NCBI RefSeq assembly: GCF_000191045.1 | Contig: NC_015185.1 | Span: forward strand, 62,001 to 126,000 | Direction of reading: 5' to 3' | DNA length: 64,000 bases | Origin: Desulfurobacterium thermolithotrophum DSM 11699 | GTDB taxonomy: Bacteria; Aquificota; Aquificia; Desulfurobacteriales; Desulfurobacteriaceae | Part shown: positions 17,164 through 33,020 of the stretch, piece after piece | Position numbering within the stretch: position 1 is the stretch's first letter | Layout: every line of letters starts with the position of its first letter | Made by a program: the position numbers and the translations under genes | Notes under the pieces: generated by a model | Told to the model about the DNA's origin: nothing | Seen by the model: only the letters and a program-made list of their open reading frames with translations | The model's database searches: none

Positions 17164-17411
17164 TCTTGAGAAAGATATGATTTTTAAAGAGCTCATAAGA
17201 AAAAAAAGAAATGGCGAGAAGCTTTCAAAAGAAGAAATAGAGTTTGTAGTTAATTCTTACACTTTGGGAGTAACTCCGGATTATCAAATGGCAGCTTTTC
17301 TTATGGCTGTTTACTTTCAAGGACTTGATTACGAAGAAACTTTAGGAAGAATTTTGCGCTAATCCTCTCCTTTTCAAAGGGGAGATACAGCGCACGGCGT
17401 AAGCCGTTGTT

Positions 17412-17420
17412 TGATATAAT
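17412..17420 (+). promoter_or_regulatory. Extended -10 promoter inside the deoA element
   Basis: TGATATAAT is a perfect extended -10 (TG-n-TATAAT) within the element. It points rightward and predicts a start near 17427, which would give an RNA of about 230 bases up to the element's right boundary. No convincing -35 is seen, as is usual for extended -10 promoters. Confidence 0.5.
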
Positions 17421-17426
17421 TTACGC

Positions 17427-17656
17427 AAGGCGATAACCAAGCCTACTGGTCTTTGAACAAGTGAATAGGCCGGGTGTGCTACTAGTAGACGGCCCATCCA
17501 CCTACCTAATGAACGGTGGATGCGGGGAGGGGACTGGTAGCGGGGTCGCTCACCTTACGAGCGGTAGGGTTGGAACGACCCGAACTTACGCCCGCAGAGA
17601 GTGCGAGCGCACTCGTTGAAGCGGGAAGCTCCTCATTTCAATGAGGAGTAGTTCAC
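17427..17656 (+). ncRNA. Candidate omega-RNA (TnpB guide RNA scaffold)
   Basis: The segment from the predicted start to the right boundary folds into at least five GC-rich stems and ends in the right-end hairpin. In TnpB systems the omega-RNA scaffold overlaps the right end and the guide is the flanking DNA immediately 3' of it. Here that flank is CTCTTACGAAATCAAT of deoA, beginning at 17657. No TnpB gene is in the window, so a nuclease would have to act in trans. The RNA call is inference from structure and position. Confidence 0.55.
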
Positions 17657-18844
17657 CTCTTACGAAATCAATGTTAAAGAGTGGAAAAACTATTGAGCTT
17701 AACATTAATGGAATAGCTGTTGATAAACATAGTACAGGAGGAATAGGGGATAAAGTTTCTCTTATTATAGCTCCGGTACTTGCAGAAATGGGATTTAAAG
17801 CTCCACTACTTGCCGGAAGAGCTTTAGGATTTACTGGAGGGACAATTGATAAGCTTGAAAGTACTGGAATGAAAGTGGAGCTTACAGATACGGAGATAAC
17901 TGATGTTGTTAAAAGGTTTGGGTTTTCAATATCTGCTCAAACAGAAAAAATAGCTCCAGCAGATAAAAAGATATACGCTTTACGGGACGCTACCTCAACA
18001 GTTGAAAGTATTCCTCTCATCGTTTCAAGCATTCTCAGTAAAAAACTTTCAGTCAACACAGAAGCAATAGTTTTTGATGTAAAGGTAGGAAGCGGTGCAT
18101 TTATGAAAACTATAAATGAAGCCACAGAATTAGCTGAAGGACTCGTGAATGTCTCTAAGCTCTACGGGAAAAAAAGCTGGAGCTCTGATAACCGAAATGA
18201 ACCAGCCCCTTGGAAGATATGCTGGAAATGCTCTTGAAGTAAAGGAATCAATTGATGCCCTTTCCGGAGATATTTCAAAAGATTTGTTAGAAGTTACTTC
18301 CTCCTTAGTCGGAGCCCTCTTTGAGCTTACAGGTTATGGAAGTTTTAAAGATGGAAAAAAGAGAGCAACGGAAATAATTCTTTCTGGAAAGGCAGTAGAG
18401 CGATTTATCCGATGGATTGAGTACCTTGGTGGAGCTCCTAGTGTAAAAGTTGCAGAGAAAAAGATGGAAGTAAGAGCTCCAGTCTCTGGCTACATAACCC
18501 ATATAAACGGCGAACAGCTCGGTTATCTTGTTATAGAGCTCGGCGGTGGGAGAAGAAGAGCTCTTGATAAAATTGATTACTCTGTTGGATTAAGGTTTTT
18601 CAAAAAGATTGGGGATTATGTAGAAGAAGGAGAACCTATAGGAGAGATTTACTACAGCAGAGGAAATCCAGAAAAGTTTTTGGAAAAGTTCCTGTCAGCT
18701 TACATAATTTCAGAAAAAGAGAAAGTAACTGCTCCTACTCTTGTGAAAAAGAAAATTATTTGAATTTCTTACGATTTTAAGAGATACTGCTATCATTTTA
18801 TCTACAGGAGTTTTTCAATTTTTTATCAACTTACGAGGTAAGAA

Positions 18845-32805: not shown

Positions 32806-32811
32806 TATAAT
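32806..32811 (+). promoter_or_regulatory. -10 box for the cobalamin riboswitch transcript
   Basis: A consensus TATAAT ends 7 bases before the first base of riboswitch helix P1, so transcription would start at or just before the aptamer. The -35 region (TTACCT at 32781, spacing 19) is weak. Confidence 0.55.
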
Positions 32812-32818
32812 CTCTCTT

Positions 32819-33020
32819 GCGCAGGTGAACGGGAAGTCCGGTGAAAGTCCGGCGCTGTCCCCGCAACCGTGAGCAGGGAACAAATAATGGGCTTTAACCA
32901 CTGGAGAGTGTGGGTGGAAAGCTCCCTCTCTGGGAAGGTTAAAGCCTATTTAACCCTGCGAGCCGGGAGACCGGCCTGCGCTGAGATTCTTTTGTCCTGC
33001 GGGGGGTCGGGACAAGGAGG
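32819..33020 (+). promoter_or_regulatory. Cobalamin riboswitch controlling btuFCD-btuB
   Basis: Helix P1 is GCGCAGG (32819-32825) with CCTGCGC (32975-32981). The conserved core GGGAAGTCCGGTGAAAGTCC is followed by GCAACCGTGAGCAGGGA, and the B12 box is AGCCGGGAGACCGGCC. A peripheral arm has a perfect 10-bp stem GGCTTTAACC/GGTTAAAGCC (32890-32946). Loop L5 holds CCCC at 32859-32862, complementary to the G-run at 33001-33006 in an 8-bp hairpin (TTGTCCTG/CGGGACAA, 32992-33015) that abuts the GGAGG ribosome site. This fits translational control by a kissing loop when adenosyl- or other cobalamin binds. Confidence 0.95.

Follow-up and report, generated by a model that had tools for sequence, protein, structure and literature searches.

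The window analysed here, a stretch of 64,000 nucleotides from Desulfurobacterium thermolithotrophum DSM 11699, is part of a complete 1.54-Mb genome. On its forward strand, a pyrimidine-nucleoside phosphorylase gene (deoA) is split into a 5' part (17177-17345) and a 3' part (17657-18763) by a genuine insertion of 311 bp (17346-17656), designated MITE1, which contains neither tnpA nor tnpB. When position 17345 is joined to 17657, the reading frame is recovered (...YEETL-A-LTKSML...), and in 14 family relatives, where the site is empty, deoA runs uninterrupted over residues 1-229, spanning the insertion point. The left flank ends in TTTAG (17341-17345), the target and presumed TAM, and no target duplication is present. 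Taking TTTAGG as the target would yield an out-of-frame deoA product; the start of the element is therefore fixed by the frame, with TTTAG as the target and a length of 311 bp. The same pentamer is present at all full MITE1 copies as well as at L016 and L018, with CTTAG instead at L017. Such seamless frame restoration is to be expected from any IS200/IS605 excision.

MITE1 is gene-free, its sole gene overlap being the 3' end of an inherited tnpB frame, which was the only coding remnant detected by tblastn. Folded as RNA, the region 17425-17672 reaches -100.5 kcal/mol (z = -4.4), a stability attained by none of 200 shuffled sequences. The insertion by itself already disrupts deoA, and the 3' part has a second lesion, a +1 frameshift in a run of seven A residues (18169-18175) that is independent of the insertion and at which the relatives remain in frame. 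This frameshift may mark a pseudogene or may be a sequencing error, the latter of which cannot be excluded. deoA is regarded as a pseudogene in this genome, and the MITE1 insertion there as merely one landing site. Elsewhere in the window, a cobalamin riboswitch was recognized at 32806-32993 (93.7 bits).

Three copies of the full element, 99-100% identical, are present in the genome, the other two lying at C1:1351450 (100%) and C1:1267831 (99%); the left half of a truncated fourth copy, cut by a different insertion sequence, was found at C1:560086. The copy at C1:1351450 (L019, about position 1950) sits near codon 10 of a small nucleotidyltransferase-like gene (FGSR..GGDIDLLV), which is likewise in frame once joined, and the copy L020 is apparently intergenic. 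Two tnpA-tnpB elements of ~1.75 kb have both ends in common with MITE1: L016 (C1:644075-645825), in which the genes for TnpA (151 aa) and TnpB (393 aa) are both open, and L017 (C1:770222-771972), in which a stop breaks tnpA and TnpB has 385 aa. MITE1 positions 1-69 share 97% identity with the left end of L016 and 94% with that of L017; for positions 197-311 and the right ends, the values are 95% and 87%, respectively. The left end contains an imperfect palindrome (17355-17394) of the IS200/IS605 hairpin type, and the DNA fold of 17346-17415 reaches -14.3 kcal/mol (z -3.5). The TnpA of L016 belongs to Y1_Tnp/NF033573, whose solved relatives include the ISHp608 transposase. Its TnpB belongs to NF038281, possesses the RuvC motifs and a zinc ribbon, and has as its best natural PDB match 8bf8 (E 1.5e-76), which is ISDra2 TnpB. 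Across the genome, 21 stretches match the TnpB C-terminal domain, and a single intact Y1 transposase gene exists, at L016.

Considering the shared ends, the TTTAG target without duplication, the absence of genes, the multiple copies and the intact TnpA encoded in the same genome, MITE1 is a non-autonomous IS200/IS605 element (MITE/PATE), with TnpA-driven excision and insertion being inferred. The initial annotation, made from the sequence alone, had claimed a 311-bp block splitting deoA with seamless frame restoration, without target duplication, without a transposase or TnpB, and with an IS200/IS605 TnpB-type right end; all of these claims held, the coordinates to the base. Its proposal that the block could be mobilized in trans is supported by the intact L016 TnpA with the same ends, although mobilization itself remains an inference. 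It would have been refuted by a lack of copies or of a TnpB partner, together with the block forming a conserved part of intact deoA genes; neither is the case, as copies and a TnpA/TnpB partner occur in this genome and intact deoA lacks the block. Three features had been missed, namely a promoter-like -10 box, an RNA domain referred to here as M, and the spread of this domain over several TnpB lineages.

Downstream of the left end lies an extended -10 box, TGATATAAT (17412-17420), and a -10-like hexamer is found in all 12 of the M-carrying RNAs (12/12). Its distance to M is characteristic of each subgroup (31-33 nt in MITE1-like elements, 95-97 nt in the larger MITE2 elements described below, and 25 nt in L108 and L116). 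The one exception is L026, whose box is the weakest (TAGAAT) and lies 106 nt before M, its left side having been replaced by another IS. No recognizable -35 box was found upstream of the -10 boxes in the M-carrying elements. The box is followed by a 5' hairpin, AGGC-GATAACCAA-GCCT (17428-17444), which is left over from the part of tnpB coding for RuvC-II and shares 13-14 nt of identity with the tnpB genes of L016 and L017, exceeding all 200 shuffles. The loop GATAACCAA recurs with different stems in the tnpB genes of relatives and in small elements of genome G056. The area of tnpB from which this hairpin derives corresponds in location to the AmaTnpB mRNA region adjoining RuvC-II, which inhibits cleavage (PMC10278001).

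Related hairpins were observed in several other settings. The form CGGC-GATAACCAA-GCCG lies within the tnpB coding region by the RuvC-II site in L084, L089, L090 and L016, and in TnpB-less elements the loop is carried on other stems between the left end and the scaffold. In G056, which represents another family of the class, several TnpB-less elements of roughly 220-250 bp (L092, L093 and L094) consist of a left end, a hairpin and a complete omega-RNA scaffold without M, the hairpin directly adjoining the scaffold. A comparable hairpin (GATAGCCAAA) is present in element L097 of G053.

The M domain (17446-17542) comprises ~95 nt (element positions about 103-196) with a highly conserved GGUCUUUGAACAANUGAAUA stretch, an H-type pseudoknot in which RRYCG pairs with YGRYY (17468-17472 with 17490-17494), and two stems, P2 (17478-17485 with 17534-17541) and P3 (17495-17502 with 17515-17522). 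The pseudoknot covaries, with GG/CC replaced by AA/UU in L079 and a C-G pair by U-A in L108; P2 also covaries in L108, and the sequence of P3 differs among subgroups with its pairing kept. These pairs were counted by script in 11 sequences on a block alignment, because MAFFT misaligned L108, and without a shuffle control. For so small a set, support for the pseudoknotted structure is good but not overwhelming. A local hairpin, P1 (GGUC/GGCC), was considered as an alternative, but its changes are one-sided only and the crossing pseudoknot is preferred.

The right end (17542-17656) corresponds to an omega-RNA (reRNA) scaffold, a stretch that in the full elements L016 and L017 consists mostly of the tnpB 3' end, the tnpB stop codon of L016 falling inside the final 20 bases. 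The scaffold structure, compared over 17 right ends drawn from 8 genomes, comprises five helices with 97.2% of cells paired; 14 of the 32 pairs have changed on both sides, and neither any of 500 shuffles nor any slid version reached the covariation score. The structure may be partly inherited from tnpB-bearing parents. Within it, a RAGATH-18-like core (TGAAGCGGGAA, 17591-17627) scores 30.0 bits (E 0.0012), short of the gathering score of 44.9, and the right ends of L016, L017, L022 and L024 likewise give sub-threshold scores. Since L016 is an intact TnpB element and also scores below gathering, the RAGATH-18 model is too narrow for the MITE1/L016 group. RAGATH-18 RNAs have been identified as guide RNAs of IS607 TnpBs (PMC11061315); they represent one TnpB-guide subgroup and do not define the class. 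The core is followed by a right-end hairpin, CTCCTCAT-TTCA-ATGAGGAG (17629-17648), in which 6 of 9 pairs covary, and by the terminus TAGTTCAC (17649-17656), which is the same in L016, L017, L019, L020 and most MITE2 copies, with the next base variable; MITE1 terminates in TTCAC. On structure, covariation and homology, this right end is likely a TnpB guide-RNA scaffold, whereas its expression, TnpB binding and guide use are inferred.

The guide itself is predicted from the known reRNA layout. In ISDra2, the reRNA carries ~16 nt of flanking DNA at its 3' end, and the target motif serves as the TAM (PMC8612924). By analogy, the guide of MITE1 would be the deoA sequence CTCTTACGAAATCAAT (17657-17672) with TTTAG as the TAM, a combination expected to match deoA once the element has been excised; no cleavage data are available. 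Allowing at most 2 mismatches, no other TTTAG-plus-guide site was found in the genome, and MITE1 in place would therefore not cut its own host site. In addition, Rfam HgcC (RF00062) gave a weak match at 17597-17669 of the window (21.8 bits, E 0.0076), and no HgcC member was found in this genome at a cut-off of E <= 0.001. As the 3' end of HgcC (GGGAGGAGGUCAG) resembles the right end of L080, it is conceivable that archaeal HgcC is itself a TnpB-type guide RNA.

M is not confined to one scaffold. The sequence 3' of M matches the TnpB elements L027/L028 in MITE1, L037 (and L034, as well as L027 at 81%) in L080, L040/L041 in MITE2 (L021, L025, L026 and L081-L083), and L038/L039/L042 in L108, and these scaffold-matching TnpBs are only 25-36% identical to the L016 protein. 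Because the first two scaffold types are mutually related, the safe count is four scaffold types on at least three divergent TnpB lineages. A cognate TnpB is intact in G000, G003 and G006 and is fragmentary (type A) in G002; the type C TnpB was not found in the incomplete assembly of G011, although MITE2 is present there. L079 has lost its right end, and therefore not all relatives are functional.

MITE2 is a second, larger TnpB-less element of about 430 bp that combines M with an extra 5' stem domain. Its loci L021 (1503-1776), L025 and L026 (C1:1418144, 1372864 and 699623) have right ends matching another TnpB lineage, and its copies differ in their terminal hairpins, which are exchanged as whole units. 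The right end of L026 matches Rfam sot0042 (E 0.0011); sot RNAs are sense-overlapping transcripts of TnpB genes, and this match thus fits the guide-scaffold reading. M RNAs of a third lineage, at L108 (1501-1616, minus strand) and L116 (20-45, minus strand), lack a recognizable IS200/IS605 left end and might be fixed guide-RNA genes.

The distribution of M is narrow. A covariance model, R1, detected it in 6 genomes from 3 genera, all of the Desulfurobacteriaceae, whereas the remaining 130 of the 136 genomes searched in the class gave no hit. When 84,980 species genomes were scanned for the motif pattern, M was not found outside this family, and a search of viral sequences (IMG/VR) returned no match. 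At M loci, tblastn with four TnpB types identified 3' remnants only and no tnpB gene. Two candidate identities for M were discarded: no Rfam family matches M at MITE1 or MITE2 loci, and its longest complementarity to tnpA or tnpB is at shuffle level, which does not favor an antisense RNA, with a marginal exception of 9 nt in L038. In the open literature searched, no description was found of M or of a module common to divergent-TnpB scaffolds; a prior mention cannot be excluded, as the search did not cover the main subscription-only papers on TnpB biology. To this extent, M is likely a previously undescribed RNA module.

Taken together, we interpret MITE1 as a non-autonomous IS200/IS605 element for which TnpA and TnpB both act in trans, the former mobilizing it and the latter receiving the guide RNA that the element itself encodes, a reading to which we assign a probability of ~0.72, with transcript, binding and cleavage all inferred. 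The initial annotation had likewise suggested a guide RNA for a TnpB encoded elsewhere, with the deoA flank as guide; structure, covariation and homology support this, without experimental demonstration. Judging from the anatomy, the Y1 TnpA of L016 would recognize the end hairpins of MITE1, excise one strand after TTTAG and paste it 3' of another TTTAG. An RNA of ~230 nt would begin downstream of the -10 box and run from the 5' hairpin through M and the omega-RNA scaffold into flanking DNA serving as guide. A TnpB from elsewhere in the genome may then take up and trim this RNA and cut the TTTAG-CTCTTACG... junction left by excision, upon which repair would copy the element back. It has been proposed that TnpB cuts its own excision joint, and TnpB can process its own mRNA into omega-RNA (PMC8612924, PMC10278001). 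With TnpA and TnpB both supplied in trans, MITE1 would thus be a parasite of both.

Under this proposal, M would be a separately maintained RNA module that has been recombined onto the scaffolds of several TnpB lineages. Our first choice for its role, which is no more than possible in the absence of data on M function, is that of a leader or handle through which the RNA, in place of the tnpB mRNA, becomes a stable stand-alone transcript that can be loaded into TnpB. A bolder reading, which we judge less likely than not, holds that M is a new functional RNA class, a pseudoknotted 5' domain recombining among the guide RNAs of unrelated TnpBs, with which gene-less transposons gain control over TnpB and, within one bacterial family, parasitize several nuclease lineages by means of guide RNAs. 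In this case, M might provide a shared handle for loading, mark the RNA for processing or act as an inhibitor.

Several other explanations deserve consideration. One is that MITE1 is a plain MITE or PATE, a passive internal-deletion derivative of an IS605 element mobilized by TnpA, whose RNA structure is a leftover of the tnpB 3' end without guide function. Its ends match the full element, MITE1 retains a tnpB RuvC-II fragment, and PATEs consisting of ends only have been described (PMC7290912). However, it would be surprising for a mere leftover to preserve, in several lineages, a -10 box at fixed spacing, or to carry M with compensatory changes, a domain that no tnpB element possesses; moreover, the scaffold pairs are still kept in L078 and L080 despite long divergence. 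This explanation is accordingly considered unlikely. Less probable still is a regulatory or decoy RNA, in which M and the scaffold titrate or inhibit TnpB (or TnpA) and so keep damage or competition in check. The attachment of M to divergent-TnpB scaffolds would suit such a role, as would, by an analogy that remains untested, the origin of the 5' hairpin next to RuvC-II, as in the inhibitory region of AmaTnpB mRNA (PMC10278001). Against it, the scaffold has the full guide-proximal structure and an exact end, and antisense complementarity of M to IS mRNAs does not rise above shuffles, save for the marginal 9 nt in L038.

The initial annotation had also raised, as a weaker idea, a splicing IStron-like RNA that restores deoA mRNA. 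The exact restoration of the frame upon removal speaks for it, but every IS200/IS605 excision is seamless, the second deoA frameshift could not be cured by splicing, and the L020 copy is apparently intergenic. Rfam models of group I introns, group II introns and HEARO found no match in MITE1 at gathering or relaxed thresholds. Self-splicing is thus not supported and is considered very unlikely, and an identity with HEARO/IscB was likewise rejected for want of a match.

Both PATEs and TnpB guide RNAs are already known, and the trans-guided reading of MITE1 is best placed against such systems. MITE1 shares with ISDra2-type IS200/IS605 elements (TnpA Y1 plus TnpB) the end hairpins, a TTTAG-type target in the left flank, the lack of duplication and an omega-RNA scaffold at the right end, but is geneless, with a -10 box and M in place of genes. 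Like PATEs and IS605-derived MITEs (PMC7290912), it has the ends of an autonomous IS without a transposase; whereas PATEs were described as ends only, it adds a complete omega-RNA scaffold, a promoter-like box and a conserved RNA domain. With TnpB omega-RNAs or reRNAs (PMC8612924, PMC10278001) and RAGATH-18 (PMC11061315), it has in common the conserved hairpins, the TGAAGC core, an end at the transposon right end and the use of the flank as predicted guide, yet its scaffold is detached from tnpB and preceded by M. In addition, RAGATH-18 has been reported with IS607 TnpBs, whereas the partner of MITE1 is an IS200/IS605 TnpB and its score is sub-threshold. Stand-alone omega-RNAs are reported to exist for IscB (Altae-Tran et al. 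2021), and these resemble MITE1 in being guide RNAs encoded apart from the nuclease; MITE1 differs in being of the TnpB type, in being a mobile element with full ends and in carrying a module common to several TnpB lineages. IStrons, which combine an IS605 element with a group I intron, are likewise intragenic elements with an omega-RNA, but MITE1 has no intron core and shows no sign of splicing.

Cas12 probably descends from TnpB, a nuclease whose guide RNA is ordinarily processed out of the tnpB mRNA. The M-carrying elements resemble guide RNAs released from the nuclease gene and equipped with their own promoter-like box and an additional RNA domain; the contribution of M on divergent-TnpB scaffolds can be tested directly. 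They may therefore offer a small natural model for how a guide RNA becomes a separate trans-acting locus, a step needed toward CRISPR-type systems.
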